43,563 bases of DNA from Acidobacteriota bacterium (lineage in GTDB: Bacteria; Acidobacteriota; UBA4820; DSQY01), in NCBI GenBank assembly GCA_021833665.1, contig JAKBES010000004.1, positions 1 to 43,563 of the forward strand. Reading direction: 5' to 3'. A program made the translations under genes and the position numbers. Below, piece by piece: positions 2,467-38,897 of this stretch. Under the pieces are notes generated by a model. It did not search any database. It was not told the origin of the DNA and saw only the letters and a program-made list of their open reading frames with translations. Position 1 is the first letter of the stretch. The number at the start of each line of letters is the position of its first letter.

Positions 2467-2470
2467 CACC

Positions 2471-4753: not shown

Positions 4754-4763
4754 CTCCCTGACC

Positions 4764-14386: not shown

Positions 14387-16383
14387 CACGGTGCCGCCCC
14401 TTTCTCGCCAGCAAGGGCAGCCGATGGCGGTATGGATGGGATCCGGTAGAGGCGTAGGTTCCCGGCCCGCCCCAGAAGGGGGAAGCCACAATCTCTTTCG
14501 GTGATGGCGTAGTCCAGATGCGACGAGGCTTCTTTCTGGCTCAAGGCCAGCATTTCCTTATCGGTGAGTTCTGCCGAGGGGTCCAAGACCAGCCGGCCTG
14601 CCGTCCTCTTCACAGCGTGAACCGCAAGCAAACGGTGCAGCCATTCCTCCGCGTAGGCACGGCTGAATTCGGACGGGGCTCCATCCTTGAACGTCACATA
14701 CGGGCTTCGCTGGGTGTCTGTCCTAAAGTCCATCCAATCTGGGGGAACGAGCACCGAGCTGTTCTTAGGGACAGCCTCGTACACCACCGCGGCCATGGCT
14801 AGCCGCTGCGCGGCCTCGCGCTGTCTCGCAGCTCCCTTCACTAAACCAAGGGCTATTCTGGAGCCGTAGAAGGCCCGGATTTCAGCCTTGACGGGAAAGG
14901 GGACCCAAGCCACGAGGGCCTGCGGAGGAACAAGCACGACGGCCATAGCGAAGGCGGCTGAAAGAATGAGAGCAAAGGAAACCCGATGCCCTTTCACGCT
15001 TATCGACCGAAGCAGGGCGAAGAACAACACGAATGCCAAGGCGAACAGCTCTGCCCCTTTCTGATGAAACCATTCCTCAGTGTTGAACCCAAAGAGAGTG
15101 AACAAAAGGTCTCCTCCCCACAGCATCATCGCCATGCCGACGAGGAGGACGAGCAAGCCGCGCATCCCGGCCAAATGGTGCGCGGCCCATCCACTCAAGC
15201 GGGGCCAGCCTCCGGCCGCGACAAGCACGGGAACGCTCAAAACCGCGAGGGTGAAGTGCCCCGAGAGCCAGCTCCCGGCCACCCAAGCAGAGGCCACCGC
15301 AACGGGCCACCGGCTATCCTGAAGCAAGGGCGCCAAAACACCGCCCAGGTAGATGGCCAACAACCACATGAGAAAGAGGAAGCCCCTGAACAGGCAGAGC
15401 TGGACAAGGGGGATCCAGTAAAGCATCGAGGCAAGCCACCCCACGGCCGCGGCCAGGATGATGCCCACGCCAACCCGAAAAACGTCGTCCTCTGAGCTTC
15501 GATACGTCCCGATTCTCTTGCGCCAAGCATAGAGTCCGAAGAAGGCGGCCACATAGACCGCCAAGTCGGGCCAAACCCCGCTCAGCCAAAGGTGAGGGAA
15601 CAGCTCCGAATCGGCCAGCACGACAAGGTCGCGCCACTGGCCCGTATACCGCCACTCGCTCGACACCCCCCCCTTGAGCACCAGCAGCGGCAGAACCGCC
15701 AGGGCAAAGCCCCCGGCCAGCCAAGCGGCCGCGCCCCACCGTCGGCGGGCCAGGGTCGCCAGGACCCCGCCGCCCACTGCGGGAACGATCGAAACCAGAT
15801 GCCCGAGGCCGCCCAGGAAGGCGCTGATCCCGCCGACGATCTTCCGGCGTTGAAGAACGGCGCCAAGTGCGGCCATAGCGAAGATCGTCCCCACGAGCCG
15901 GTGGGTAAAATAGTCGTCGAAGGTGTCGTTGGCGACCCCGGGGACGGGGAACGTCGGAATCCACAGAACCACGGCGAGCCAGGCGGACGGCCGGTCCCCC
16001 CACCAAGCGAGGGCCGTCCTGTACGTAAGCCAGAGGACGAGGTAGCTGGCCAGGATATAAAGCAGCAGACACAGAGTCTGAAGGTCTACAAAGCGCGTAA
16101 GGAGCGAAACGGCGGCCCAAGTGCCGGAAAGCTTGGCGAAGCCTTGTTGCAGAAGAGGGTCGTGAGGGAAGAGCGTAGAGTCGTTCCACTTTAAGACGAA
16201 GGGAAGGTAAAGGGCCTGATCCTCCTTGCCAAAGTAGTATCCTCGGCAAAGAACCGCGGCGCCTGTAGCCGCCAGCAGGGCTCCATGGATCGTGGCAAGT
16301 TCTTTGAGCCGGCGCCCAGAGGGACCTGGATGGGTCCCGGATGCCTCCTCCGCCACGGTCTGGGTGCTTCTAGGCCGCTTCAT
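14386..16383 (-). CDS. Polytopic membrane protein, family A copy 3 (putative GT-C glycosyltransferase)
   Basis: 665 residues with a longer hydrophilic N-terminus (about 30 residues) before TM1. It then has GKEDQALYLPF (Asp55) and FPHDP (72-76), the family A signature. The C-terminal part has VPKNSSVLVPPDWMDFR and RSPYVTFKDG, parallel to copies 1 and 2. The start overlaps the upstream TMTC-like gene stop as ATGA, so translation is probably coupled. It is the first of eight consecutive A/B/C-type genes in transcription order. Function inferred only from topology and neighbours. Confidence 0.78.
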   Translation of the reverse strand: MKRPRSTQTVAEEASGTHPGPSGRRLKELATIHGALLAATGAAVLCRGYYFGKEDQALYLPFVLKWNDSTLFPHDPLLQQGFAKLSGTWAAVSLLTRFVDLQTLCLLLYILASYLVLWLTYRTALAWWGDRPSAWLAVVLWIPTFPVPGVANDTFDDYFTHRLVGTIFAMAALGAVLQRRKIVGGISAFLGGLGHLVSIVPAVGGGVLATLARRRWGAAAWLAGGFALAVLPLLVLKGGVSSEWRYTGQWRDLVVLADSELFPHLWLSGVWPDLAVYVAAFFGLYAWRKRIGTYRSSEDDVFRVGVGIILAAAVGWLASMLYWIPLVQLCLFRGFLFLMWLLAIYLGGVLAPLLQDSRWPVAVASAWVAGSWLSGHFTLAVLSVPVLVAAGGWPRLSGWAAHHLAGMRGLLVLLVGMAMMLWGGDLLFTLFGFNTEEWFHQKGAELFALAFVLFFALLRSISVKGHRVSFALILSAAFAMAVVLVPPQALVAWVPFPVKAEIRAFYGSRIALGLVKGAARQREAAQRLAMAAVVYEAVPKNSSVLVPPDWMDFRTDTQRSPYVTFKDGAPSEFSRAYAEEWLHRLLAVHAVKRTAGRLVLDPSAELTDKEMLALSQKEASSHLDYAITERDCGFPLLGRAGNLRLYRIPSIPPSAALAGEKGAAP

Positions 16384-18548
16384 TTAGGCAACACGCCCTG
16401 GGCGGGACTTTGAGTTCCCTCGGAAAAATGCTTGGCCAGGGCCTCATCCTCCCGCGCTTCGCCGGAGCGGCCACGGGCGGCGGCGATCCGGGCCAGGCCC
16501 AGCCAAGCCTCACCTTGCCTGGGACCGCGGCGGAGAGCTTCCCGATACTCCCCTTCGGCTTCATCGAATCTCTTTTGTCTTTCCAGAATCTCCCCAAGCT
16601 TGAGGTGCGCCAACTCCCCAGCAGGAGTCAGTATCGCTGCCTTCCTAAGGTGAGCCTCGGCCTGCGGGATTTGGCCGGCCCGCAAATCGAGCAGGCCGAG
16701 GTAGTACCATGCCTTTCCCGATTGAGGCTCTGAGGCAACCGCGTGCTCAAAGCTGCGTCGGGCCTCCTGATCGTGCCCTTCCTGCGCCTGAATCCTCCCC
16801 AGTTGGATGGAGTAGGCCACCATCGAAGGCTTCAGGGCAGCCGCTTTGGCGAAGCAGCGTTCCGCTTCCGGGAGACGCCCCTGCCCTTCGCGGACCATGC
16901 CCAGGTTGTTGTATGCTCTGTCGTCCTCGGGAGACAAGACAACCACTCGCTCGTAGCAGGCGGCTGCCTCCTCCGGCTTCCCCTGCCGCTCGAAAAGGTT
17001 TCCAAGATCGCCCCAGGCGTCCACATAATCGGGGGCGAGGCGGACGGCCTCCTTGAGCTGATCCAACGCCCCCCGCAAGTCGCCCTCCTTCTGAAGGGCC
17101 ACTCCAAGCATGGTGTGGGCCAAATAATTGTCGCGAGTGACCTTGGCCGCATGCTCAAAGAGGGTGACGCTAGTCCGCCATGTGCGGGCCTGAACCCAGG
17201 TGGCCGCGCTCAAGGCTACAATCACAAGCGCCGCCCCCGCCGTTGCAGCCACCTTCGCTTTTAGACTGCGCAGCGGAATCTCAACGGCAGCCCAGGCCAG
17301 GATGATGAAAATCCCAATGGCGGGAACGTAGGTGTAGCGGTCCGCCGAGGACTGGCCTCCCACTTGGAGGATGCCGATGACGGGAACGAGCGCGCCAAGG
17401 TACCAGAGCCAGCCCATGAGGACGTAAGGTCGGCGGCGGCGAAGCCGCCAAGCAAGCACCATGACCAGCACAAGGAGTGTCATGGCAAGGAGGGCCTTCG
17501 GAATCGTCACGGCTTGGATATGGAAGGGATAAAAAATCGCCAGGTTGGCCGGAACAAAGAGCTTGGCGAGGTACCCAGCATAAGAGATGAGGGCGTTTTG
17601 ACAGCGCATCAGGAAAGGTATTCGCTCCAGCGGCGTAATGGCGCCGTGCTGCGCAACGATGGTGATCGCCACGAAACCTGCGGATAGGATAAGAAACGGG
17701 ACCTTTTCAGCCAAGAGTCGCCAGGGCGAAAGAAGGCCGCTCTCCCCTTCCTGGACGGGGGGGGCTTTCGAAACCCGCCCCCATCCAAATCCCACTCTTT
17801 CCAGTGGCCAGTAGTCCATGAGCAGCATGAGGAAGGGCGCGGTCACCGTCATGGCCTTGGAAAGAAGGGCGCAAAGGAAGAGACCCAAAACCGCGGCGTA
17901 TCGGCCTAGCGAGGGGTGCTTGGCGTACGCGACATAGGCCAGGAGGGCCAGCATGAGAAAGAAGGTGCTCAGCACGTCCTTTCTCTCTGCAATCCACGCC
18001 ACGGACTCGACGTGCAGCGGGTGCAGTGCGAACAATGCCGCCACAAGGGTGCTTGGCCAAAGGGCACCCGTGGCGCGTCGCAGGACCGCCATGAGGAGTA
18101 GGGCGTTTGCCACGTGGATCAGAAGGCTCGTGAGGTGGTGCCCCCAGGCGTGCAGACCGTAAATCTGGCAGTCCAACATGTGGGAGATGAGGGTCAGGGG
18201 ATAATAAAACCCCATGTGCAGGGTCGTGAAGGCCCACCGCAATCCCTCCCAAGTGAGGCCAGCTTGGACGTGCGCGTTCTCGGTCACGAACATGGGATCG
18301 TCATAATTGATGAAGTCCGCACCAAGAAGCGGTGAGAACGCTAGCAGAGTCAGGGCAGCCAATCCCAGGGTTACAAGAAGCGGCGCTCTGGAGCTTCTAA
18401 TGTTCGGGCCACCGGCGACCGCATGCCCATCGGCATCACTGTTTGGTGGACGGTAGACGGCGGGATCGATCACCCTGGCCTCCCCTTCTCGCTCTAGATG
18501 GCGCGCAGATCTCAGCGCGGGAACGTGACCAAGCGAAACGTCCGTCAC
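16380..18548 (-). CDS. TMTC-like GT-C membrane protein with C-terminal TPR repeats
   Basis: 722 residues. The N-terminal half is polytopic. It has the acidic loop FINYDDP (Asp83/Asp84) and the signature HPLHVESVAWIAERKD (176-191), which is characteristic of TMTC-type proteins and their bacterial homologues. In animals, TMTCs are O-mannosyltransferases of the GT-C class. The C-terminal third (about 470-710) has around seven TPR units of the form LGxxxxxxGxxxxAxxxxxxAxxxxP, likely periplasmic and suited to binding a protein or glycan acceptor. The start is GTG at 18548, overlapping the GT2 stop (GTGA). Adjacent to a DPM1-like GT2, a plausible donor-making partner. In bacteria such TPR-GT-C proteins are candidates for protein O-glycosylation, but the acceptor is unknown. 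Confidence 0.82.
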   Translation of the reverse strand: MTDVSLGHVPALRSARHLEREGEARVIDPAVYRPPNSDADGHAVAGGPNIRSSRAPLLVTLGLAALTLLAFSPLLGADFINYDDPMFVTENAHVQAGLTWEGLRWAFTTLHMGFYYPLTLISHMLDCQIYGLHAWGHHLTSLLIHVANALLLMAVLRRATGALWPSTLVAALFALHPLHVESVAWIAERKDVLSTFFLMLALLAYVAYAKHPSLGRYAAVLGLFLCALLSKAMTVTAPFLMLLMDYWPLERVGFGWGRVSKAPPVQEGESGLLSPWRLLAEKVPFLILSAGFVAITIVAQHGAITPLERIPFLMRCQNALISYAGYLAKLFVPANLAIFYPFHIQAVTIPKALLAMTLLVLVMVLAWRLRRRRPYVLMGWLWYLGALVPVIGILQVGGQSSADRYTYVPAIGIFIILAWAAVEIPLRSLKAKVAATAGAALVIVALSAATWVQARTWRTSVTLFEHAAKVTRDNYLAHTMLGVALQKEGDLRGALDQLKEAVRLAPDYVDAWGDLGNLFERQGKPEEAAACYERVVVLSPEDDRAYNNLGMVREGQGRLPEAERCFAKAAALKPSMVAYSIQLGRIQAQEGHDQEARRSFEHAVASEPQSGKAWYYLGLLDLRAGQIPQAEAHLRKAAILTPAGELAHLKLGEILERQKRFDEAEGEYREALRRGPRQGEAWLGLARIAAARGRSGEAREDEALAKHFSEGTQSPAQGVLPK

Positions 18549-19348
18549 ATGTCCAGACGACGGCCTTGTTGCGAGAAAAGGCGGCTCTTTAAGAACCCCA
18601 TGCGGTTCATTCTATAGGCGACGGCCGTGCCTAAAACGCCGAATCCATAAATCACGCTGCGCTGGAAATTAATGGAGGAGGCCTCCTCCATGTAACGCGT
18701 GGGGCATGAGACCTCACCGATGCGGAATCCGAAGTGAACGGCCTGGGCGATGACCTGGTTATCGAAAACGAAATCGTCCGAATTCTCGGAGAGAGGAAGG
18801 GCCTGCAAAACCTTGCGGGAGTAAGCCCGATACCCAGTGTGGAATTCCGAATATTTGGTGCCGAGAAGGATGTTTTCGAGGAGAGTCAGGCTCCGGTTTG
18901 CGATGTACCGCCACCATGGCATCCGCCCGCTCCTTGCGCCTCCCCCTAAAATCCTCGAGGCGAGAACCATGTCGTACTCATCGGAAGCGATCATCCACGC
19001 CATGGCCCCGCACAGTTTCGGCGAGTACTGATAGTCGGGGTGGACCATGACGACGATGTCGGCGCCGAGCCCCAGCGCTGTCCGGTAGCAGGTCTTCTGG
19101 TTGCCGCCGTACCCTTGATTCCGTTCGTGCTGGATCACGTGTGCCTTCAGCCGCCGCGCGAGGGCGATGGTGCCGTCTTGACTCTGATCATCCACGATGA
19201 CCACCTCGTCGATGATTTCGTGAGGGAGGTCCTCGTAGGTGCGAAGCAACGTCTTTTCCGCATTGTACGCGGGCATGACGACAATAACCTTCTGGTCCTT
19301 GATCACCTGGAACGCTCCCTGGCCATCCGTCCTCCCCCGACGTATCAC
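18545..19348 (-). CDS. Family 2 glycosyltransferase, dolichol-phosphate-mannose-synthase-like
   Basis: 267 residues with a GT-A fold: VIVVMPAYNAEKTL (21-34), VDDQSQDGT (52-60), the metal-site region MVHPDYQYSP (101-110) and a C-terminal hydrophobic stretch near 230-250. These match DPM1/GtrB-type GT2 enzymes, which move a sugar from a nucleotide donor onto polyprenyl phosphate at the cytoplasmic face. The product would be the donor for the GT-C proteins encoded around it. It starts at GTG 19348 with GAGGGGGTGA upstream; a second GTG 14 codons in also has GGAG before it. It is followed by the TMTC-like gene with a 4-nt overlap. The specific sugar cannot be read from the sequence. Confidence 0.88.
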   Translation of the reverse strand: MIRRGRTDGQGAFQVIKDQKVIVVMPAYNAEKTLLRTYEDLPHEIIDEVVIVDDQSQDGTIALARRLKAHVIQHERNQGYGGNQKTCYRTALGLGADIVVMVHPDYQYSPKLCGAMAWMIASDEYDMVLASRILGGGARSGRMPWWRYIANRSLTLLENILLGTKYSEFHTGYRAYSRKVLQALPLSENSDDFVFDNQVIAQAVHFGFRIGEVSCPTRYMEEASSINFQRSVIYGFGVLGTAVAYRMNRMGFLKSRLFSQQGRRLDM

Positions 19349-22080: not shown

Positions 22081-22114
22081 CGCAAAACGGGCCGCGGCGT
22101 CGGCCGCGGCCCGT
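22081..22114 (-). terminator. Rho-independent terminator after the small secreted protein gene
   Basis: The minus strand forms a perfect 12-bp stem, ACGGGCCGCGGC / GCCGCGGCCCGT, with loop CGAC, followed by TTTTGCG. It lies just past the stop at 22138, ending the export region before the glycosyltransferase cluster. Confidence 0.85.
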
Positions 22115-22137: not shown

Positions 22138-22614
22138 TCAGGGCCTGGAGGGCGAAGCGGGAGCGGGGGCTCCAGCGGACGAGGCGCCCATGCCCGTGTA
22201 AATGTGCGTGGTCGTGTCGTTGCTGGCGGTACGTGCGCTCACGGGATAGGTGGAGAAGAAATCGTTGAACTGAGCTATCACCGCGTAGGCTTTGCCCCAG
22301 GTCACGAGGCTGTCGGGTTCGGGCGAATAGTAGGGCTGGCCCATGAGCCGGAGGATATGCACCAAGTTGCCGTCATTCATCTTGGCGGCCGGATCCCACG
22401 TCCCGGAAAGAGGGCTGAGCCCGAGGCTGGAGAGGAACGACCCGGCCGACGTGGGGGTCCATCCACCGGCGGGGGCGGGGGCCTTCAGGTTGGAGGCGAG
22501 CAGCACCGCGAAATCGCCCTGACTGATGGGATCGTTCGTGTTGGCCGCCCAAAGCAGGCTGCACGCCATTAACGCGAGACCCGCGAGCGTGAGAACCATT
22601 GTCTTCCTGATCAT
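22138..22614 (-). CDS. Small secreted protein (possible SLH-like domain)
   Basis: 158 residues. The N-terminus is a signal peptide (KTMVLTLAGLALMACSLLWA). LMAC could be a weak lipobox at Cys18; otherwise cleavage near WAA is likely. The mature part has ISQGDFAVLLASNL and a repeat-like KMNDGNLVHILRLMG, which loosely resembles S-layer-homology-type helices. It ends in an Ala/Pro-rich tail. The gene has a canonical promoter and an AAGGAGGG ribosome binding site 7 nt before the ATG, and is closed by a strong terminator, so it is probably well expressed on its own. It sits directly downstream of the BY-kinase gene. I do not recognise a named family; an envelope role linked to the exported polysaccharide is an inference. 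Confidence 0.75.
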   Translation of the reverse strand: MIRKTMVLTLAGLALMACSLLWAANTNDPISQGDFAVLLASNLKAPAPAGGWTPTSAGSFLSSLGLSPLSGTWDPAAKMNDGNLVHILRLMGQPYYSPEPDSLVTWGKAYAVIAQFNDFFSTYPVSARTASNDTTTHIYTGMGASSAGAPAPASPSRP

Positions 22615-22647: not shown

Positions 22648-22676
22648 AATGTAGAGCACCACTTCGGGGCTGTCAA
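22648..22676 (-). promoter_or_regulatory. Sigma70-type promoter for the small secreted protein
   Basis: Minus-strand TTGACA, 17-nt spacer, TACATT, about 33 nt upstream of the start codon and just outside the BY-kinase gene. The -35 is a perfect consensus. Confidence 0.75.
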
Positions 22677-22711: not shown

Positions 22712-24865
22712 TCAGTCCGGGTAAGTTCGGCCCCGGCGTTTACCACCGACCATCTCCTTCCAGCCTCCGACTTTGCCCATGATCCAGGGCAAACGCTTGG
22801 GCTCGGTACCGGTGGAGTAGTAGTAGTGATTATAGTAGTAATAATCGTAATAGTACGAGCTTTGGGTCTCCACTGCGTTGAGCACGACCCCAGTGATCTG
22901 GATGTTCGCACGCTTCAGGGTCACGAGAACCCGTTCCAGAAGGGGTTTCTGGGTCTTCTTGTACCGGGCCACCAGAATGGCCCTGCTGGACATGCCGCCC
23001 AGTATGAGGGCGTCGGAGATGGACAAACACGGGGGTGAGTCAATGATGACCCAGGCATATTCCTTCTGGAAGCGATCCAGCAGGTCCTTGAAACGCTTCA
23101 TGGAGAAGAGTTCGGGCGGATTGGGCGGCGTGGGGCCCGAATAGAGCACGTGAAGGTTGGGCTGTGGTCCGGCCACGACGTATTCCTCAATGAGGGCACT
23201 GCGCTCGGCCAGGTAGTTGGTGAGGCCCTTCACCCCGGGTGGGGCCTTGAGGATGCGCTGGATGCTCGGCTTGCGCAGGTCGCAGTCCATGAGCAGAACC
23301 CGGTCCCCCGCGGAGGCGAGGGTCTTGGCAAGGTTGGCCGCGACGCTCGTCTTGCCCTCCTTGGGACTGGCGGAGGTGACGAGGATGATGTTCTGGTGGT
23401 TTTCGGCGCCGAAGACCAGGGCCGTGCGCAGGGTCTGAAAGGCCTCCGCCCCCACCTTCTCCGTCGTTGCCATGAACTTGGGAATCATGGTCAGAAGGGG
23501 GACCCCCATGCGCGTCTCCAGATCCTCCACGGATTTCACGGTGGTGTCCAGGTACTGCCATCCCACCACGCTCCCCACCGAGAGCATGAGCCCGAAGAGG
23601 AGCCCCATGAGGAGGTTCATGCGCTTGTTGGGCTTGACCGGCGCGCCGGGGGTCTGGGCCGGTTCCACGAGGCGGATGTTGCTTGATAGGAGCGAGCTGC
23701 TCACGTTCAACTCGCGCATCTTGTCGTAGAGCAGGTCCATGTACTTCTTGATGGCGGCGCTGCTGGTGTTGAGGCCCTCGCCCTTGGAGGCCCCTTCGAC
23801 GAACTGGAGGCCCTCGCGTCTCGCGCCGTCCAGGTCCTGCATGAGGTTCGCCTTCTCGGCGCGGAGGGCCGCGAGCTGGTTCTTATAGGTGCCGAGGACG
23901 ATCTGCGCCTGCTGGCTGATGCGGTCCTTCAGCGCCCTGATTTCATCCTGCTTCTTGAGGACGTCGGGATGCTTGGGGGTGAACTTGGCCAGGAGGCGGC
24001 CCAGCTCTCGGTTCAGGTCGTTGTACTGCTTGGCCAGGTCCTGCACGGACGGGTCCTGGGCCACGGCGGGGACGCTCAGCGGGTCGCCCCCCGAGCGCTG
24101 CCAGCTCTCGAGCTGGGAGGCGATGGCGGCCACCTCGCTCTCCTTCACGCCCACTTCCGTGAGGCGCTCGCTGAGGGAGCCGATCTGCTTGTCCAGGATG
24201 TCCTTTTGGTTCTGCGGGAAGTAGGAGCCGGACGCCTCGAGGGAGTTGGTCATGGTGGTCTGCTGCCGGGAGTACTCGTCCTGCATCTTGCGCGCCTCGC
24301 CCAGCATGACGCTGTTGGCTTTGGAGATGTAGTCGAGGGCGTCCCGGAGCTGCTGGTCGGCGTACACGGCGGCGATGGTGTTGGCCCACAGGGCCACGTC
24401 GTCCTTGTAGGGGGCCATGACGGTGATCCGGAAGAGGGCGCTGTCCCGGACGTTATCCACCTTGGTCATCCCCGCCAGAACCGCCGCCGGGTCCTTGCTC
24501 CCTTGAAAGGCCGGGTGGTTCTGGAGCTTGAGGCGGTCCACCACTTCCTGCATGACGGTGCTGCTGGTCATAATCTGCTGCTGCGAGTTGTAGAACTTCT
24601 GCTCTTCCATCCAGGAGCTCGCGCCCATGGGGTTGAACCCGCTCATGGGCTGGCGGCTGTAGCTCTGAACGTAGACCGTGGCCGTGGCCGAATAGATGGG
24701 AGTCGCCAGGAACGTATAGAGGGCCACGAGGATCAGCACGGCCAGCGTGACTCCACCGATCCAAAACCGCTGGTCCCAAAGGATCTGCACCCAGTGAAGG
24801 AGATCCAGATCCTGGGCGGGGGCGAACTCCTGCTGGAGGGGCGGGGATGGGGTGTTGTCGGGCAC
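22712..24865 (-). CDS. Wzc-like polysaccharide co-polymerase / BY-family tyrosine kinase
   Basis: 717 residues. TM1 is near 34-53, followed by a Wzz-type domain, a long coiled-coil periplasmic part and a GNVR-like region, then TM2 after PNKRMNLLMGLLFGLML. The cytoplasmic kinase has Walker A ASPKEGKTS (499-507), Walker A' LLMDCDLRKP (524-533) and Walker B VIIDSPP (606-612). The tail has a dense tyrosine cluster YYYDYYYYNHYYY (671-683), the autophosphorylation site type of BY-kinases. These proteins control chain length and export of capsule or exopolysaccharide with a Wza-type exporter. The start is GTG 24865, overlapping the upstream OPX stop by 1 nt (TAGTG). The tail continues 34 residues beyond the cluster with several Lys/Arg, which is less usual. 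No Wzy, Wzx or priming transferase is in the window. Confidence 0.93.
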   Translation of the reverse strand: MPDNTPSPPLQQEFAPAQDLDLLHWVQILWDQRFWIGGVTLAVLILVALYTFLATPIYSATATVYVQSYSRQPMSGFNPMGASSWMEEQKFYNSQQQIMTSSTVMQEVVDRLKLQNHPAFQGSKDPAAVLAGMTKVDNVRDSALFRITVMAPYKDDVALWANTIAAVYADQQLRDALDYISKANSVMLGEARKMQDEYSRQQTTMTNSLEASGSYFPQNQKDILDKQIGSLSERLTEVGVKESEVAAIASQLESWQRSGGDPLSVPAVAQDPSVQDLAKQYNDLNRELGRLLAKFTPKHPDVLKKQDEIRALKDRISQQAQIVLGTYKNQLAALRAEKANLMQDLDGARREGLQFVEGASKGEGLNTSSAAIKKYMDLLYDKMRELNVSSSLLSSNIRLVEPAQTPGAPVKPNKRMNLLMGLLFGLMLSVGSVVGWQYLDTTVKSVEDLETRMGVPLLTMIPKFMATTEKVGAEAFQTLRTALVFGAENHQNIILVTSASPKEGKTSVAANLAKTLASAGDRVLLMDCDLRKPSIQRILKAPPGVKGLTNYLAERSALIEEYVVAGPQPNLHVLYSGPTPPNPPELFSMKRFKDLLDRFQKEYAWVIIDSPPCLSISDALILGGMSSRAILVARYKKTQKPLLERVLVTLKRANIQITGVVLNAVETQSSYYYDYYYYNHYYYSTGTEPKRLPWIMGKVGGWKEMVGGKRRGRTYPD

Positions 24866-26004
24866 TAGAAGAACTTCCTCTCTCGAACCACGACCTGGTC
24901 GTTGGGGAGCAGGGGAACATCGGGGATTTTCCCCCGTTCCACATCTCCCGCATCCACGTGGATGACTTTGGTCTTGCCTCCGTTTTCCCTCAAGATGTCC
25001 ACTTTGCCCTTGTTGGCCCAGTCCGTGAAGCCTCCCGCGCGGGTGATGGCCCTCAGGAGGGTCATGTCGCGGCTGTAGGGAAAGGGCCCCGGGCTCTTGA
25101 CCTCCCCGTTCACGTAGACCGACTTGATCATCTGAACGTTGATCACGTCCTGGTCCCGCACGTAGATGTTCACCTTTTCGCTGTTCCCGGTGAGGAGCTC
25201 CTCCTTGGAGAACACCTTGCTCTGGAGCTGGCCCGCGGAGTCCCGCCGCTGGATCTCCACGTCCCCCGAGCTGTCCGTAAACCCTCCGGCCTGGCTGATG
25301 GCGTCAAGCACCTTAAAGGTTCCCTTGAGAGGAATGCGGCCGGGCATGCGGACCTGGCCCAGGACGTTCACGAAGCGGCTCCCGTACTCGATGAGCTGAA
25401 TGCTCACCTGGGGCGATTTAACGAACTGGGCGAGCTGGTCCTCGAACTTCTTCTGGAGATCGTTCACGGAGAGGCCCTGGACCAGCACTTTGTCGAGGAC
25501 GGGGAAGGTGATGTAGCCGGCCGGGTCCACGGTCACGGTCTGGTTCATGTCATCCACGTTGTACACGGTGATCTGGAGCTTGTCGCCGGGCCCTAGGGGA
25601 TAGGCCGGGGGCGTGTCCACGGCGAAGGCGTCGCCGCCGCGGCTGGGCCGACCCCCCCCGCCGGCGGACCACTTGGCCCTCAGGATGTTGCCCTCCCAAG
25701 TGACGACGGGTCCGGCGCTCAGGGGCAGCTCGATGACCAACCCACCCGAAGCGGGCGTGACGATACCCTCCAGGCCCTTGGGAACCTGGACGCCACCGGC
25801 GGTGGAAAGGAACCACCGGACGGTATCCTTCCCGACCTCATTCCGGACCCCAAGGGGCGTTTCCGACGAGATGGTCAGGTCGCCCGGAACTCCCTTGACG
25901 GCCGGATCCGCCGTGGCGGCCCCGGCAGGCAAAGGCGCGCCCAGGACCAACGCCCCGAGCGCCAAGACTCCGAAGAACGCAGAACACCGGCTGCGACACC
26001 GCAT
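24865..26004 (-). CDS. Wza-like outer-membrane polysaccharide export (OPX) protein, lacking the C-terminal helix
   Basis: About 379 residues from the ATG at 26004, which has GGGGAG 5 nt upstream (the track start 26040 is less likely). It has a Sec signal peptide (FFGVLALGALVLGAPLPAGA) with no lipobox Cys. An N-terminal beta domain (about 30-110) may be AMIN-like. The Poly_export domain begins YPLGPGDKLQITVYN, and two SLBB-type repeats follow (FVNVLGQVRMPG and SVYVNGEVKSPG). The protein stops at LLPNDQVVVRERKFF. E. coli Wza continues there into the amphipathic helix that forms the outer-membrane pore. Without lipid anchor or helix it should be periplasmic and need a separate outer-membrane conduit, which the preceding beta-barrel gene could supply. 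Co-transcribed with the BY-kinase. Confidence 0.92.
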   Translation of the reverse strand: MRCRSRCSAFFGVLALGALVLGAPLPAGAATADPAVKGVPGDLTISSETPLGVRNEVGKDTVRWFLSTAGGVQVPKGLEGIVTPASGGLVIELPLSAGPVVTWEGNILRAKWSAGGGGRPSRGGDAFAVDTPPAYPLGPGDKLQITVYNVDDMNQTVTVDPAGYITFPVLDKVLVQGLSVNDLQKKFEDQLAQFVKSPQVSIQLIEYGSRFVNVLGQVRMPGRIPLKGTFKVLDAISQAGGFTDSSGDVEIQRRDSAGQLQSKVFSKEELLTGNSEKVNIYVRDQDVINVQMIKSVYVNGEVKSPGPFPYSRDMTLLRAITRAGGFTDWANKGKVDILRENGGKTKVIHVDAGDVERGKIPDVPLLPNDQVVVRERKFF

Positions 26005-26070
26005 GGGTCTCCCCATCAAAGGTGAAATACTATAAACCATGGGAGCTCAAAGCGCATTTCCTCGTCACGC

Positions 26071-26111
26071 GAAAAGAAAGAAACCGGGCGCCCCTTGAAG
26101 CGGCGCCCGGT
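26071..26111 (-). terminator. Terminator/attenuator between beta-barrel and OPX genes
   Basis: The minus strand has a 10-bp stem ACCGGGCGCC / GGCGCCCGGT followed by TTTCTTTCTTTTC. It lies just after the beta-barrel stop and before the OPX gene, so it may set the ratio of barrel to OPX/kinase. A weak TATAGT lies between it and the OPX start. Confidence 0.8.
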
Positions 26112-26133
26112 CTTGCCGCTTGTGTCCAGCGCT

Positions 26134-27435
26134 CTACCAGCCGAACTGGGCCTGCACGGCGATTCGGTTCTCCGTATAGCTGTAGGGCCGGTGGATGCCC
26201 GTAAGGTCGTAATACTTGATGGTGCTGTTCCGGTCTTCATATTGATAGTTGGCCTTCAGGCTGAGCTGCTTGCTGAAGTGGTAACCCAGCTCGGCGAAGG
26301 CGCGGTTGATCTTGTCCTTGCGCGTCTGTCCCCCCGTGAGGAGGAACTCGTAGGTCGTGGGAGACATGGGCCCCAGGGGGTACATTTCAGTCCGGTCCGG
26401 ATAGGCGTTCTCCTGGTAATGGTAGCCCGCCGACCAGAAGACGTACCGGGAGAGCTGGTGGTGCAGGGCCAGATCGCCGCCCGTGGAGGTGTAATAGTTG
26501 TTCACGTTGTAGGCGGACTGATAGGGCATGCGGTTCAGGTCGAGCTGAACCTGGAAGAACTCCGTGGCGCTGTAGGTCAGCCCCGCATCGGCCACGAAGC
26601 CGTTGAAATTGGAGAAGCCGTTGTCGAATTTAAGGCGGGACCAGCCGGCCTTGGCAAAGCCCGTCAAGCGGCTGCCCAGCGCCCCGTCTACGCCCGTGAG
26701 GACCTGCACCGAGTCGTACTTCTTGCCGTTCACGTTGGTGTACAGCGCGTAGTCCCACACCTGTGTGTCCGGCGTATTCTTAAGATACCGGCCGTCCAAG
26801 AGCCAAACGGCGTTGGGCCTGAAGCTGTACTTCCACACGAGGCCGCCGCCCGCCTGGTGATAATCGAAGAAGGGGGTCTGGTACGTCGTGTTTACATCCG
26901 TGAAATGGACCTTGTTGTACAGCCCGTACACCCCGATGGTGTTAAGTTTGCTCACGGAGAAGTCCAGGCCGACCCTCAAATTGTTGTTGTTGAAAGGGGT
27001 GTTGCTGTAGTACTGCTCGCCGCCCGGATCGAACTTGTTCACCTCTTGCACGCCGCGGATGAAGTTGTCTTGGAGGGTCAGGGTCGTGGTGCTGCCGAGC
27101 TTGAAGACGCCCTTGATGTCCGCTGTGTACGTGTCGTGCGTGGCGAGGTTGTAGTTGTTGCTGTAGTCCTGGTACTGGTACCCCAAGTCCACCCTGAAAT
27201 AGCTCTGCTGGAAGGGGAACTCGAAGCCCACTGCGGGGCGGATCGCCCAGAAGTGGCCGCTGATGTTCCCGAAGGGCATGGATTTATCTTGCAGATACAG
27301 GTTGTCCGTGTGGGTATACACCGCCTCGATGGAGGGATAAAACACGGCGCTGCCCATAGGGATGCCATCTCCTGCCCAAACCGAGCACGCAAGCCCCACT
27401 GCGAACGCTACGGCAAGCACCTTCCTCATGTCCAT
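26134..27435 (-). CDS. Outer-membrane beta-barrel protein of the polysaccharide export operon
   Basis: 433 residues. It has a signal peptide (MDMRKVLAVAFAVGLACSVWA), then alternating hydrophobic/aromatic beta strands throughout (for example FRVDLGYQYQDYSN and LSLKANYQYEDRNS). The C-terminus QAQFGW ends in an aromatic residue, as in BAM-inserted barrels. The size would fit roughly 16-18 strands. It starts at ATG 27435 with GAGGAGG 5 nt upstream, behind a near-consensus promoter. It is followed by the helix-less OPX and BY-kinase genes. In Myxococcus-type composite systems, an outer-membrane barrel of this kind partners a periplasmic OPX. The same role is inferred here. Confidence 0.88.
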   Translation of the reverse strand: MDMRKVLAVAFAVGLACSVWAGDGIPMGSAVFYPSIEAVYTHTDNLYLQDKSMPFGNISGHFWAIRPAVGFEFPFQQSYFRVDLGYQYQDYSNNYNLATHDTYTADIKGVFKLGSTTTLTLQDNFIRGVQEVNKFDPGGEQYYSNTPFNNNNLRVGLDFSVSKLNTIGVYGLYNKVHFTDVNTTYQTPFFDYHQAGGGLVWKYSFRPNAVWLLDGRYLKNTPDTQVWDYALYTNVNGKKYDSVQVLTGVDGALGSRLTGFAKAGWSRLKFDNGFSNFNGFVADAGLTYSATEFFQVQLDLNRMPYQSAYNVNNYYTSTGGDLALHHQLSRYVFWSAGYHYQENAYPDRTEMYPLGPMSPTTYEFLLTGGQTRKDKINRAFAELGYHFSKQLSLKANYQYEDRNSTIKYYDLTGIHRPYSYTENRIAVQAQFGW

Positions 27436-27795: not shown

Positions 27796-29838
27796 TCATC
27801 GCGTCGTCGCGTCCCGTGCCGCGTCCCACTCCTCGACCAGCGCCCGGCGGTAGGCTTCGGCGCTCCACCTCGTCCGGTCCATCTTCCAATATTCGCCTGA
27901 AAGGGCCGCCGCGACGTCCGGGAACCGATCGTCCACTTGGCCAGTATCCGCTCCCAGCGCCTCCCGAAGGCGGGAGTCCAAAAGGCCTTCTCGGAGGGCT
28001 TCCCACTCCACGGTCTGGATCCGCGTGCCCCCTGGCCCGTTCTCCACGCAGACGTCGTGGCGCAGATAGGGATGGCTCCAGTCGGTGTCTCCCTCCACCC
28101 CTGCGGCGTAGCAAAAGACCCAGAAGCCCGAAAGACCGAAAGCGTGCGAGAAGATCCCCGCCCAAATGCGGTTGAAAAAGGGGTCCTCGCGCAGGCCTTG
28201 CACGTAGGTCCATCGGCCTTTCGCAAGCCCCCGGGGCCCGGCCAGGGGCACGAGGTTGGGATCCAGGGCGTAACCGTCCAGAACCTTGGCCAGGCTCAGG
28301 GAGTTGGGCCAGCAGAGGGCGGTCCACGCCTTGAACCCCCGGGCCCGCAGCTCGGGGGCTATGCGCCGCACCCGGGCCAAGGCTTGGGGCGACGTGGGCT
28401 CATCCACCGTGTAGGCCCACGCGCCGGGGAGGGCCTTGAGTCCCGCCGTGTCCATGGCGAAGGCCCCGTCCATGCCCGCTTCCCTGGCTGCGGCCACGAA
28501 CCGCTCCCAGGCCGCCTCGCCGCGGGCATAGCACGTGGCGGCGTTGAAGCCGTGGTCTGCCATATCTCGCAAGTCGGTGGTCCAGCGGGCCGGTTCCCTG
28601 TCGAGGTAGTACATGCCGGCCACGCGCCGCGTCGGCGGCAGAGGGGGCGCTACCTCAATGCTCCACGCCAGTTCGCCCAAGCTTCGTCTTCCCTCGGCGA
28701 CCTGGATGGAGGAGGCCATGGCACCCGGGGGGGCGCCCGAAGGCACGCGCGCCCGGAGATAGACCCTCGTGGGCCACCGGCTGGGGGGAAGCCCGGAGGC
28801 TCCGGCGGGGAAAAGGCGCTCGGCCACCAGCACGTCTCCGGCCCCCAAGGCCACGCGGGCAGGGAAGAGCGCGTCCTGCTCCTCACGGGTCCCCGCCTGC
28901 CACCAGAAGTCCACGCGGAAGACCTCGGCCCCGGCCAAGGGCCCCGACACCGTCACCTGGATGGGATCGGCCGAGGCCGGGCACTCCAGCCACGCGGTGA
29001 CGAACTCGCCGGCCGGCGAGGCCTCCTCGCAGGCGGGGCGGCCGGCGCCATCAGGAAGGAAGGGCCTCACCTCGAAGGGAACCAGGGCTTCAGGAGAAGC
29101 GAGGGGCGAGGGGAAAGACGCTGGGATGAGGAAGGACGGCCCGTCCCCGCCCCACCGGGAGGAGGAGGGCTGGGGAGAGGACGTGTTGAGCACTTCGAGG
29201 GACATGCCGCCGGCCACCAGCTTGCGGCCTCTCAGGGCCGAGAGCCGGAACGTGTCCCCGGCCTTGAGGCCCAGGACGCTCCAGGGGACCAGCCACTCCC
29301 CCGCCCATGTGTGGCCGAAGTGCGACTCCGCGGCGCACCAGCTCAGGCCGGACAGCCCCGAAGCATCGCCCTCTTCGTCCAGGGACACGATGCGTCCTTC
29401 GGGATCCAGCACGAAGAGGACATCCTTCGCCCCCTGCACCCGGACCGCCATCCAGTCTCGCAGCAAGGCCTGGCCCGGTGATGCTGGAGGCATGGCAGGC
29501 GGGGGCGCTTTGCCTTTGGGGACGGCAGGCGAGGGCGTTTGCCCCACGGGGGTTGTTCCCCCCAGGCACACGGACTCCGTGGAGAGGATGGCCACATAGA
29601 GGCCGTCCCTCACGGCCAGGGCGTAGGCGCGCACGCTGCCATCCCGCGCCCCCGACACGGCGTCGTATTGGAGCAGGGGCGCCGCCCCCAGCAGGAAGGC
29701 CTCCCGAGGATCCCCGTCCACGTGCACGGCGTAAGGGGATGCGGGCAGGGGCCGAGCCGCGCCCAGGGCACCCGCGCTCAGAAGGATAGAAAGCACGGCA
29801 CACAGGCTTCGGATGATGGCTGGCCTCCTGAAGATCAT
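27796..29838 (-). CDS. Secreted multidomain glycoside-hydrolase-like protein
   Basis: About 680 residues from the ATG at 29838; the 26-codon track extension lies in repeat-like sequence. It has a signal peptide (SLCAVLSILLSAGALGA). The N-terminal third looks like a CBM9/DOMON-type beta-sandwich (YAVHVDGDPREAFLLG ... EWLVPWSVLGLKAGD). A middle beta domain follows, then a C-terminal TIM-barrel-like region with VAGMYYLDREPARW, GFNAATCYAR, AYTVDEPTSP and GFWVFCYAAG. The DEP motif is reminiscent of DUF4091/GH123-type putative glycosidases, with Asp-Glu as possible catalytic pair. There is no clear Shine-Dalgarno. It lies upstream of the export operon in the same orientation and could trim or degrade the exported glycan (inference). 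Family assignment is tentative. Confidence 0.65.
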   Translation of the reverse strand: MIFRRPAIIRSLCAVLSILLSAGALGAARPLPASPYAVHVDGDPREAFLLGAAPLLQYDAVSGARDGSVRAYALAVRDGLYVAILSTESVCLGGTTPVGQTPSPAVPKGKAPPPAMPPASPGQALLRDWMAVRVQGAKDVLFVLDPEGRIVSLDEEGDASGLSGLSWCAAESHFGHTWAGEWLVPWSVLGLKAGDTFRLSALRGRKLVAGGMSLEVLNTSSPQPSSSRWGGDGPSFLIPASFPSPLASPEALVPFEVRPFLPDGAGRPACEEASPAGEFVTAWLECPASADPIQVTVSGPLAGAEVFRVDFWWQAGTREEQDALFPARVALGAGDVLVAERLFPAGASGLPPSRWPTRVYLRARVPSGAPPGAMASSIQVAEGRRSLGELAWSIEVAPPLPPTRRVAGMYYLDREPARWTTDLRDMADHGFNAATCYARGEAAWERFVAAAREAGMDGAFAMDTAGLKALPGAWAYTVDEPTSPQALARVRRIAPELRARGFKAWTALCWPNSLSLAKVLDGYALDPNLVPLAGPRGLAKGRWTYVQGLREDPFFNRIWAGIFSHAFGLSGFWVFCYAAGVEGDTDWSHPYLRHDVCVENGPGGTRIQTVEWEALREGLLDSRLREALGADTGQVDDRFPDVAAALSGEYWKMDRTRWSAEAYRRALVEEWDAARDATTR

Positions 29839-29879
29839 TGTACAACGGACGCGGCGAGGGAGAGGGGGGAAATGGGGAA

Positions 29880-29902
29880 GGAGATTTCGGATTTGGGATT
29901 TG
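29880..29902. repeat. 23-nt AT-rich intergenic repeat, inverted copy at 37769-37791
   Basis: GAGATTTCGGATTTGGGATT here reappears exactly on the other strand at 37769-37791. A related but looser stretch (GATTTGGGATTTCGAATTT) lies near 21930. All are intergenic and AT-rich against the GC-rich background. Confidence 0.8.
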
Positions 29903-29942
29903 GGAAACGAGATCACCGGATCACCCGATCACCCGGTCGTCT

Positions 29943-30048
29943 CCCGCGTCTCACGTCTCGCTCAATGAATCAGGAACCTGAGCGCCATCTAAAGAAGGCC
30001 CCTCGGGTTAGGTGGTCTTTCACTTTTTCACTTTTCACTCCCCGCTCC
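29943..30048. repeat. Imperfect ~100-bp direct repeat, copy 1 (3' flank of the GGDEF gene)
   Basis: It shares with 33209-33322 the order: CGTCT..CGCTC, ATCAGGAA, GGCCCCTCGGGTTAGG, GGTCTTTCACTTT, and CACTCCCCGCTCC. This copy runs into the end of the GGDEF gene, so its last codons (GSEK-stop) are repeat sequence. Confidence 0.75.
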
Positions 30049-32925
30049 AACAACCACCCTGTCCCTGCCCTCCTGCTTGGCCCGGTAGAGGGCTTCGTCG
30101 GCGGCGGCCACCAGGTCACGGGATGCATCCTGATGTGCGGGCCGCCGCGTGGCGGCGCCGATGCTGACGGTGACGTGGTCCGCCACGGATGATTTCGGGT
30201 GGAGCAGGGCCATGGCCGCCACGGCGGCACGGATGTCCTCCGCGACGGCGCGAGCACCCTCCGCTCCCGCGCCGGGCAGGACCACCACGAACTCCTCGCC
30301 CCCGTATCTCGCCGCCAGGTCGCCGGGGCGTTCGGCGTGCGCGGCCACGGCCGCGGCCACCCGCCGCAGGCCCTCGTCTCCCTGCTGGTGTCCGAGGGCG
30401 TCGTTGTATGCCTTGAAAAAATCCACGTCGATCATGAGGAGGGATAGGTCCGTTCCGGCTCGCAATGCCCTGTTCCACTCCCCTTGGAGATGGTCTTGAA
30501 AGACCCGGCGATTGGCGATCCCCGTCAGGCCATCGGTGGCGGCGAGGAGCTCCAGGCGCTGGTTGGCTTTGGCGAGGAGGGCCGTCCGCTCCGCCACCTG
30601 CCGCTCAAGCTGTTCGTTGCGCGTGCGGACGCGCCGCGTGCGGACCCCGGACACGGCCCACGCCGCGGCGGCCGTGAGCACCACCAATGTGCCCAAGGCG
30701 GCGAAGGCCAGTCCCCAGGGCACCTCCACCTCAAAGGGCACGCGGGCCGGCTCCAGGCTTCCCCGTCCGTCGGGAGCGACGGCCCGCACTTCGAAGACGT
30801 ACGAGCCCGGGAAGAGGTTCGTGAAATGGGCCTTCCTCTCCCACTGCGGATCCGACCAGCGCTCGTCGTACCCGGCAAGCCGGTAGAGGAACCGGGTCGT
30901 CTCTTCGGCGTGGTAAGTGGGCGAGAAGAAGGAAACGGACAGATCGTGGATGGGGAAGGCCAGCCGGCCGCCCGGCGCCACCCGCCGCCCCTCACCGTCC
31001 AGCGCCGCCAGAACCCCCACGGCCGGAGGAGGCGGCAGGCGGACTGCCGCGACGGCGTCGGCCTCAGAAAAGCCCCCCGCCATGCCCACCCACAAGCGCC
31101 CCGGTTCGGCCAGGAGGCAATGTTCCGCCGTCGTGGAAGGACCGGCCAGCCCCCGGGAGTGATCCAGGATGGCTTCCACCCGCTCCCCGCGCACGCGCAC
31201 CACACTGTACGAGCACGCCACCCATACCGCGTCTGATTGTGCCTCGGCCGCGAGGGCGACGATGTAGCGGTCGCCCAGGGTTGAATTGACCGTATCCATG
31301 GCCTCGGCCCTTCCGCCCGACAGCCGCCACAGTCCTTTGTCGGTGCCCACCCACACGCCTTCGGGGCGAGCGAGTACGGCGCGGCACACGAGGCTCGGCA
31401 ACCCCTCCGCCAAGCCGAAGCGCCGAAGGCCTCCTTTGGAAAAGGCCAGCACGCCCTGGCCGTCGGTTCCGATCCAGACGGTCCCGTCCTTCGCGATGGA
31501 AAGCCCTCGGGCTTCGCAGGCCGAACAGTCCTCGTCCGAACCGGGCACCATGCGCTCCAGGTCCGCCGGCGCGTGCCGGGCCCTGTCCCAACGAAAGCGC
31601 GTCACGCCTCCGAGGGCAGCCACCCAAACCCGCCCCTGAGGATCGCTCGCCAAACCGAAAATGCGCCGGCCGCCCAGTTCGGGTGGAACGCGAAGCCTGC
31701 GAGCACGTCCCCCTTCCACCACGGCGAGGCCGTCGGGCGTCCCCACCAGGAGGGTGCCGCCGGGGAGCGCGAGGAGGGCCCACGCCTCGCCCACGTCCCT
31801 GCCCGAGGCCATGGGAACCAGCCGCCCGTCCGCTTCAAGCCGTGAGACCCCGTCCGTGTGTCCCACCCACAGCGGGCCGCCGAACTCCCGCGCGAAGGAG
31901 AGGACCATGCCGCCGAGGCCCCCGCGCTGGGTGAGCCAAGAACGCAACCGCAGGTTCAGGACTTTCACCAAACCGTCTTCGGTGGCCAGCCAGATGAGTC
32001 CGTCCCGGTCTACGATGGCCCCCATGGCCCCATTGCCTGGAAGGCCGTGGTCGCCGTCGATCACGACGGTGGCCTTTCCCTTCTCAAGGACGGCCGCGCC
32101 CCGGGTTCCGGAGGTAAGCACGAGGCAATCCTTTCCCGCCGAGGCGGCCTCAGCCGCGAAGCCTTCAGGAACTCGCCAGGCGGGATCGAGCGCAAAGCCG
32201 CTGCCCTCACCGCGCGCCACGCCCCGCTCGCCTACAAGGAGAACCGCCTCCCCGAGGGAGACCACCCCAGCCACGGCCCCCACGCTCGCGGGTACCGCGA
32301 CGGGGGTAGGCGCCAACCCTTTCACCCGGAAGAGGCCCGAGTCCGTGGCAACGAATGCATCCTCCGCTCCGATCGGGTATACCCCCCTCAGGTTGCCGGT
32401 GATGCCCGCCACCACCCTCTCAAGGCGCCCTCCGCGCCAGCGCAGGACCTCTTTCCCTTCCGCGAACCATACGGCCCCCCGCCCGCCGGCCATGGACGTG
32501 AACTTCCGGCCCGCGAGACTTCGAGCCCCCTCGGGCAAGGGGACGACCAGGGGAGACCCATTGGAGGCGTCCGTGGCACGGAGGACGGCGGGACCCTCCT
32601 GGGTCAGGACCCAGATGAGGCCCTCGCCGTCTTCCGCGAAGGCCTTCACGGAGTCGTGAGGCAAGCCCTCGCCGGTCGTGAGGTTGGCGAAGGCCCTGCC
32701 GTCATATCGTCCCGTGCCGTAGGAGGTGCCCGCCCAAATGAAGCCGCGCGAATCTTGGAAGACCGCGAAGACCTGTGAGAACTTGAGGCCGTCGTCGATG
32801 GTGTAGACCCGGAGGGCGGGCCGCTGCGCCAGGGCCGCGCTCGCGAGCCCGGCGCCAAGGAGCGCCGCGAGCCACCAGGCACGGAGCGCGTGCCACCAGC
32901 GCCGAGTCTGAAGAAGTCCCTTCAT
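30028..32925 (-). CDS. Propeller (Reg_prop/Y_Y_Y) membrane-anchored diguanylate cyclase
   Basis: 965 residues. It has a signal peptide (AALLGAGLASAALA), then Reg_prop-type beta-propeller blades across about 35-620 (YTIDDGLKFSQVFAVFQDS, GLIWVLTQEG, GLIWLATEDGL), which form a periplasmic sensor. A Y_Y_Y domain follows (FLYRLAGYDERWSDPQ ... FTNLFPGSYVFEVRA), then one TM near 740-760, a coiled coil and a GGDEF domain (796-965). The catalytic motif is GGEEF (875-879). An RPGD I-site (866-869) lies 5 residues upstream, predicting feedback inhibition by c-di-GMP. It makes c-di-GMP from GTP in response to an extracytoplasmic cue. It has its own promoter. It is encoded between a putative glycosidase and a sensor kinase, near an exopolysaccharide operon, a typical c-di-GMP target. 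Confidence 0.93.
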   Translation of the reverse strand: MKGLLQTRRWWHALRAWWLAALLGAGLASAALAQRPALRVYTIDDGLKFSQVFAVFQDSRGFIWAGTSYGTGRYDGRAFANLTTGEGLPHDSVKAFAEDGEGLIWVLTQEGPAVLRATDASNGSPLVVPLPEGARSLAGRKFTSMAGGRGAVWFAEGKEVLRWRGGRLERVVAGITGNLRGVYPIGAEDAFVATDSGLFRVKGLAPTPVAVPASVGAVAGVVSLGEAVLLVGERGVARGEGSGFALDPAWRVPEGFAAEAASAGKDCLVLTSGTRGAAVLEKGKATVVIDGDHGLPGNGAMGAIVDRDGLIWLATEDGLVKVLNLRLRSWLTQRGGLGGMVLSFAREFGGPLWVGHTDGVSRLEADGRLVPMASGRDVGEAWALLALPGGTLLVGTPDGLAVVEGGRARRLRVPPELGGRRIFGLASDPQGRVWVAALGGVTRFRWDRARHAPADLERMVPGSDEDCSACEARGLSIAKDGTVWIGTDGQGVLAFSKGGLRRFGLAEGLPSLVCRAVLARPEGVWVGTDKGLWRLSGGRAEAMDTVNSTLGDRYIVALAAEAQSDAVWVACSYSVVRVRGERVEAILDHSRGLAGPSTTAEHCLLAEPGRLWVGMAGGFSEADAVAAVRLPPPPAVGVLAALDGEGRRVAPGGRLAFPIHDLSVSFFSPTYHAEETTRFLYRLAGYDERWSDPQWERKAHFTNLFPGSYVFEVRAVAPDGRGSLEPARVPFEVEVPWGLAFAALGTLVVLTAAAAWAVSGVRTRRVRTRNEQLERQVAERTALLAKANQRLELLAATDGLTGIANRRVFQDHLQGEWNRALRAGTDLSLLMIDVDFFKAYNDALGHQQGDEGLRRVAAAVAAHAERPGDLAARYGGEEFVVVLPGAGAEGARAVAEDIRAAVAAMALLHPKSSVADHVTVSIGAATRRPAHQDASRDLVAAADEALYRAKQEGRDRVVVGAGSEK

Positions 32926-37804: not shown

Positions 37805-38722
37805 TCATTCACCGCCTATCTCGCAGGCGACGCCCCTCTCTCTAAAGATCCTCAGCGCCGCCTCGATCCGCGCGGATAGCGGGTGCGGGCCTTGAGGGGC
37901 CATCGGGTACGGCCTGCCCAGGCCCTCGTATTTGTCACGGCCCAGCTCGTGGTAGGGCATGAGTTCGGCCTGGGCGATGCCCAGCGCGGCGGTGAGTGAG
38001 GCGATGGCCGAAAGGTTCTCTTCGGTATCGGTATAACCGGGGACCAGGGGGACGCGCACGATGATCTTGGAGGCGTCTCTCTCGGCCAGGGCGCGAAGGT
38101 TTTGGAGGATCAGCTCGTTGGATGCCCCGGTGCAGCGCTCGTGGAGGTTGGGGGCCACGGCCTTCACATCGAAGAGGAAGAGGCCGATGAGCGGTTCGAG
38201 CTCTAGGAGGGTCTGCGCCGGGACGTGGCCGCAGGTCTCCACCGCCGAGCGGATGCCCAGGCGCTTGCAGCGCAGCAGGAGGTCCTCCAGAAATTCGGGC
38301 TGGGCGAAGGGCTCGCCGCCGGAGAAGGTCACGCCTCCCCCGGAGTTCTCGTAGAAGGCCGCGTCGGCCGCGACCCTGGCCGCGACGTCCTCGGCGGTCA
38401 TGGCCCTCCCCATGACGGCCAGGGCTCCCTGGGGGCAGGCCTCCACGCAGGGCCAGGTCTTGCAGACCCTGCACGCCTCGCGGTCCATGAGGGGGCCCGT
38501 CTGCCCCTCGCGGATCGCCCCGGAGGTGCAATGGTCCTTGCACGCGTAGCACGCCCGGCAGCGGGCCGCGCTGCGGCGCAGTTCGGGCCCGAAGTTCTGG
38601 GATTCGGGGTTGCAGCACCAGAGGCAGCGCAGCGGGCAGCCTTTGAAAAAGACGAGCGTCCGGATCCCCGGCCCGTCGTGCACCGCGTAGTGCTGGATGT
38701 CGAAAATCATCCCTTCAGCCAT
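37805..38722 (-). CDS. Glycyl-radical-enzyme activating protein (radical SAM)
   Basis: 305 residues from the ATG at 38722, which has AAAGGA 6 nt upstream (the track start 38746 is less likely). The radical SAM motif is C29-x3-C33-x2-C36 in FKGCPLRCLWCCNP. It is preceded by HDGPGIRTLVF, the classic activase N-terminus. Two extra cysteine clusters (CRACYACKDHC and CRVCKTWPCVEAC) are ferredoxin-like inserts. These are typical of activases for non-PFL glycyl radical enzymes and absent from short PflA. Later motifs are TFSGGEPFAQPEF, ETCGH and DVKA. It uses SAM and electrons to install the glycyl radical on the enzyme encoded directly upstream (38898-41420). The two genes are separated by a 175-nt hairpin-forming spacer. 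Oxygen-sensitive chemistry implies anaerobic or microaerobic expression. Confidence 0.95.
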   Translation of the reverse strand: MAEGMIFDIQHYAVHDGPGIRTLVFFKGCPLRCLWCCNPESQNFGPELRRSAARCRACYACKDHCTSGAIREGQTGPLMDREACRVCKTWPCVEACPQGALAVMGRAMTAEDVAARVAADAAFYENSGGGVTFSGGEPFAQPEFLEDLLLRCKRLGIRSAVETCGHVPAQTLLELEPLIGLFLFDVKAVAPNLHERCTGASNELILQNLRALAERDASKIIVRVPLVPGYTDTEENLSAIASLTAALGIAQAELMPYHELGRDKYEGLGRPYPMAPQGPHPLSARIEAALRIFRERGVACEIGGE

Positions 38723-38753
38723 GGAGTCCTTTAAAGATAACCACAAACGATTG

Positions 38754-38836
38754 AACCGCGAAGGCGCGAAGATCGCAAAGATTTCTTCTGGTAGAAATGA
38801 ATTTGTCCCCTTTGCGCGCTTAGCGTCTTAGCGGTT
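38754..38836. repeat. Long imperfect inverted repeat between glycyl radical enzyme and activase
   Basis: The 27-nt arms (AACCGCGAAGGCGCGAAGAT... and ...CGCTTAGCGTCTTAGCGGTT) match at 22 of 27 positions across a 29-nt AT-richer loop. The AACCGC-AAG-CGC-AAG type is a recurrent intergenic hairpin in many genomes. In the mRNA it would fold between the two cistrons. Confidence 0.88.
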
Positions 38837-38897
38837 AAGGGCTTATCACCTTAATACCTCTTAGCAGTTCAGCGGTCATGGCTCGCGCGGCCCGTGG

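Follow-up and report, generated by a model that had tools for sequence, protein, structure and literature searches.

The 43,563-nt stretch of Acidobacteriota DNA analyzed here (the window) carries on its minus strand a set of genes for a predicted polysaccharide export system, transcribed in the order barrel, OPX, PCP and 158-aa protein:

26134–27435, minus strand: barrel gene; 433 aa, outer-membrane beta-barrel of the BBP2_2 family
24865–26040, minus strand: OPX gene; 391 aa, Poly_export and two SLBB domains
22712–24865, minus strand: PCP gene; 717 aa, Wzc-like polysaccharide co-polymerase with a fused tyrosine autokinase
22138–22614, minus strand: gene for a conserved exported protein of 158 aa, probably the last of the operon
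22087–22114, minus strand: intrinsic-terminator-like hairpin of 12 pairs, 11 of them G-C, directly 3' of the 158-aa gene

The barrel and OPX genes are separated by 93 bp, the PCP gene start overlaps the OPX stop codon by one base, and 97 bp lie between the PCP and 158-aa genes. The hairpin is the strongest stem in the region and sits at the expected place, as a consensus match only, such matches numbering five in the region against 5.5 expected in shuffles. With this hairpin following the 158-aa gene, the operon probably comprises four genes, from the barrel to the 158-aa protein. A promoter-like match at 22676–22648 could also drive the 158-aa gene. The earlier note had placed a barrel of about 430 residues first in an operon. 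The 433-aa barrel was found as described, and its first position is likely, with the qualification that another conserved gene on the same strand (27796–29916) ends 360 bp upstream and that a simple promoter scan gave no match in this 360-bp gap.

The 706-aa product of that upstream gene is without a family match, and a PDB profile search with it returned nothing meaningful. Its gene keeps this place upstream of the barrel throughout the family, and a second family has proteins of weak similarity. A nucleotidyltransferase-like protein (41537–42730, minus strand; NTP_transf_5, 1.5e-34) is encoded about 14 kb from the area of the barrel and 706-aa genes in the window; in three genomes (G001, G002 and G008) relatives with 35–37% identity lie between these two genes. 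Also upstream is a two-component-propeller protein with a GGDEF domain (30028–32925, minus strand), for which a c-di-GMP link to polysaccharide control is possible. A glycyl-radical enzyme and its activating enzyme (37805–41420, minus strand) are apparently unrelated to the export operon. Downstream, a row of large membrane proteins (511–14491, minus strand) includes three YfhO and two DUF6798 matches, and a GT2 at 18545–19348 resembles polyprenyl-phosphate sugar synthases; together they possibly serve periplasmic sugar decoration. The gene at 16380–18548 (minus strand) encodes a membrane protein whose C-terminal half is of TPR type, and similar membrane-TPR proteins are found downstream of the same block in the relative L081.

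The barrel matched Pfam BBP2_2 (PF10082) over residues 23–410 with an E-value of 4.6e-22 and 78.8 bits, exceeding the gathering cut-off of 23.7 bits. The closest curated barrel family was EpsL (TIGR03014; 5.5e-9), at 35.5 bits under its cut-off of 275 bits. The protein carries a signal peptide and ends in ...AVQAQFGW, the terminal ...GW being kept in all 11 aligned barrel sequences. Such an end is expected of an outer-membrane barrel recognized by the BAM machinery. Our own topology model, based on an 11-sequence profile, was run with three penalties, of which the strictest favored 18 strands and the two weaker ones 22 and 26. With 18 strands as the best or a near-plateau solution, this is the probable strand number. 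In the 18-strand solution short turns face the periplasm and long loops the exterior, and the first strand starts soon after the signal peptide, so the barrel appears to have no Wzi-like N-terminal helical plug. A PDB profile search detected no relative of solved structure. The barrel of 'Acidobacteria bacterium isolate WY4.bin4' shares 99% identity with the one in the window. AlphaFold, run with two sequences (the window's and one 99% identical relative), gave a mean pLDDT of 26.5, too low for interpretation.

In the OPX protein, Pfam recognized Poly_export at residues 143–216 (7.7e-22) and two SLBB stretches, the last of which (SLBB_2) covers residues 306–385 of 391. As the earlier note had claimed, the protein ends at NDQVVVRERKFF right after the SLBB part, without an amphipathic C-terminal helix: Wza_C was not matched in Pfam, and the six residues beyond the last domain leave no space for a helix of the Wza type. 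Its further claim that a lipobox is lacking was borne out by a scan of the first 60 residues in this protein and six relatives; the N-terminal signal is type-I-like. The C-terminal pattern VVxxRKxF is kept in the six relatives, and we therefore consider the protein complete and not truncated. GfcC is absent as well, which places the protein in Class 3 of Saidi 2022 (Poly_export plus 1–7 SLBB, no Wza_C, no GfcC).

The Poly_export-SLBB-SLBB core accounts for about 250 aa, and the remaining length consists of the signal peptide and an N-terminal extension of about 100 aa. This extension is a conserved feature of the family, with weak conservation also in the order's second family. AlphaFold with the single OPX sequence gave a mean pLDDT of 39, again too low for interpretation. 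An AMIN identity of the window extension was rejected (no Pfam match; hhalign probability of 0.1% against AMIN domains). The extensions of four other barrel-coupled OPX proteins elsewhere in Acidobacteriota (L052:5208–6380, L050:2977–4272, L057:2362–3309 and L068:2485–3636) resembled AMIN as a set, with an hhalign probability of 48.9% and a best shuffled control of 3.8%; taken singly, they showed no AMIN resemblance by hhalign and none in Pfam.

The PCP matched Wzz (4.7e-17) and GNVR (2e-10) in Pfam, TIGR01007 over its cut-off (1.1e-46) and the Wzc model PRK11519 (1.2e-59), and its tail, YYYDYYYYNHYYY, is rich in tyrosine. At 717 aa it is about as long as the E. coli Wzc model (720 positions) and so not obviously extended. 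The 158-aa protein had no match in Pfam or NCBIfam, and a PDB profile search gave nothing meaningful. An SLH-like repeat was considered for it and discarded, since the hhalign probability of 0.2% did not exceed that of shuffled controls. Five relatives, drawn from two families, also have its gene beside that of the PCP, and it is the last operon gene in two families; the protein has a conserved tail, TTTHxxTGxG...PASPxxP.

Poly_export (OPX) and BBP2_2 are each encoded only once in the window genome, by adjoining genes. Within the order, the barrel and OPX genes are adjacent in 11 of 13 genomes, that is, in all 11 with both genes on one contig; in G008 both genes sit at contig ends, which fits a break, and one genome (67% complete) has neither. 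We also sampled 80 genomes across Acidobacteriota. Here 26 of the 32 BBP2_2 matches were no more than about 1.1 kb away from an OPX gene, and in all 26 pairs the barrel gene was directly 5' of the OPX gene on the same strand. The 16 coupled OPX proteins inspected elsewhere in the phylum all end at most 15 residues past the SLBB-end profile match, and thus none of them carries a Wza_C segment.

Wzx, Wzy and an initiating transferase were not recognized within the window; all three are present in the window genome, on other contigs. In genome G012 the block shares a single co-directed cluster with Polysacc_synt_2 (a polysaccharide nucleotide-sugar dehydratase), Wzy (3.7e-17) and Wzx (5.3e-21). 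The export operon likely serves a Wzx/Wzy-dependent pathway.

A composite OPX/beta-barrel arrangement was described in 2022 with experimental work on M. xanthus and reported from many phyla (Schwabe 2022, PMC9601211; Saidi 2022, PMC9603273); the main texts of these two papers do not mention Acidobacteria or BBP2. EpsX and EpsY of M. xanthus bind and stabilize each other (PMC9601211), and Saidi 2022, which names the coupled porin Wzp, describes an 18-stranded open-channel barrel for Class 3 (PMC9603273). The window OPX protein lacks the outer-membrane-spanning D4 helix, as do the D1D2 and D1D2D2 types of Schwabe 2022, and the BBP2_2 gene 93 bp upstream corresponds to the porin near the OPX gene of Saidi 2022.

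EpsY/EpsX (WzaX/WzpX) shares with the window system an OPX confined to the periplasm, an adjoining barrel, which in the window too would probably have about 18 strands, and a PCP in the pathway. The M. xanthus OPX proteins are only about 190–217 aa long, whereas the window protein has 391 aa, two SLBB domains and an N-terminal extension, and it has no lipobox while nearly all myxobacterial OPX proteins are lipoproteins. The barrels also differ, the window barrel being BBP2_2/EpsL-like and homologues of MXAN_7418/3226/1916 being found only in myxobacteria (Saidi 2022, PMC9603273). VpsN/VpsM of Vibrio cholerae, likened here by description and from another phylum, is a short OPX with a coupled barrel needed for the VPS polysaccharide (PMC9601211). 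In Sphingomonas LM7, the barrel gene prmC directly precedes the SLBB OPX gene prmD, as the barrel gene does in the window; the LM7 pair lies in a Wzx/Wzy locus, and mutants of either gene lose the polysaccharide. The host is alphaproteobacterial, and PCP and kinase are separate genes there (PMC11340318). The OPX and PCP of the window also match their counterparts in the EpsL/EpsE/EpsF/EpsG loci of XrtB/PEP-CTERM systems (TIGR03014, TIGR03028, TIGR03017 and TIGR03029), all four matches being under the curated cut-offs; unlike in these loci, chain-length protein and kinase are fused in the window. With Wza of E. coli, a Class 1 OPX, the window protein shares Poly_export, SLBB and a Wzc-like partner, but it lacks the C-terminal helix and the lipobox.

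Taken together, the operon would encode the last, exporting part of a polysaccharide pathway that is probably Wzx/Wzy-dependent. In the inner membrane, the PCP/tyrosine kinase would set polymer length and pass the chain to a ring of OPX protein in the periplasm, presumed to be octameric like that of Wza. Unable to cross the outer membrane, this ring would dock onto the 433-aa BBP2_2 barrel, which would be the pore. We give this composite export route a probability of roughly 85%, because the OPX protein is complete without Wza_C, the barrel has the family match and C-terminal signature of its kind, the sole genes for the two adjoin with conserved adjacency, and EpsX/EpsY, VpsM/VpsN and prmC/prmD provide precedents. 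The ring, its docking onto the barrel and the passage of polymer through it are inferred from sequence. At that level the composite principle proposed in the earlier note is supported by the helix-less OPX, the adjoining barrel, the PCP/kinase in the operon and the conserved pairing.

The barrel could instead be an accessory surface protein, a polymer-binding anchor like Wzi, with the OPX ring passing the polymer to another outer-membrane protein. Wzi does form a barrel of 18 strands, is associated with capsule loci and is dispensable for export (PMC9601211), but the window barrel matches BBP2_2 and not Wzi in Pfam, the early first strand leaves no room for an N-terminal helical plug, and the sole BBP2_2 gene adjoins the sole OPX gene, whose product has no membrane part; we find this role improbable. 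Even less probable is that the barrel acts alone as an AlgE-like translocon with the OPX protein as a periplasmic scaffold or regulator and no ring beneath the barrel. M. xanthus EpsX has AlgE as its closest structural homologue, and the AlgE pathway is without an OPX (PMC9601211); however, OPX and PCP are kept beside the barrel across the order, and a Wzc-like PCP normally partners an OPX ring, as established for Wza-Wzc. The draft genome that contains the window is split into 408 contigs, and a frameshift or assembly error could have shortened a Wza-like protein with its own helix. This artefact was ruled out by the conserved C-terminus, the ...VVxxRKxF end being kept in six relatives and 16 further coupled OPX proteins stopping at the same point, and its likelihood is negligible.

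Compared with the published composite systems, the composite export route proposed here departs in its OPX above 280 aa, the missing lipid anchor, the N-terminal extension, the apparently ordinary-length PCP and the conserved 158-aa companion. At 391 aa the OPX protein exceeds the limit of 280 aa for short coupled OPX proteins in Schwabe 2022, which is an empirical search cut-off and not a mechanistic criterion; 93% of the coupled barrels in that study had an OPX of at most 280 aa (PMC9601211). The same authors proposed an extra-long periplasmic PCP part for composite translocons (PMC9601211), whereas here the PCP is not obviously extended and the OPX is longer instead. Some of these features could make up a variant translocon, in which a non-lipidated OPX with a beta-rich N-terminal extension is joined by the 158-aa protein as a fourth, undescribed subunit. 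Within such a variant, which we regard as rather unlikely, the extension would possibly be AMIN-like in some relatives of the phylum and bind the wall.

The composite OPX/barrel principle is already published, and the window operon is a further and essentially ordinary instance of it. It adds a well-conserved case, in another lineage, of the secretion principle from 2022. BBP2_2, a Pfam family without an assigned function, is linked to polysaccharide export in Acidobacteriota by the adjacency of 26 out of 32 matches to OPX genes. The length of the OPX protein further suggests that N-extended, barrel-coupled OPX proteins escape searches limited by size (OPX up to 280 aa).
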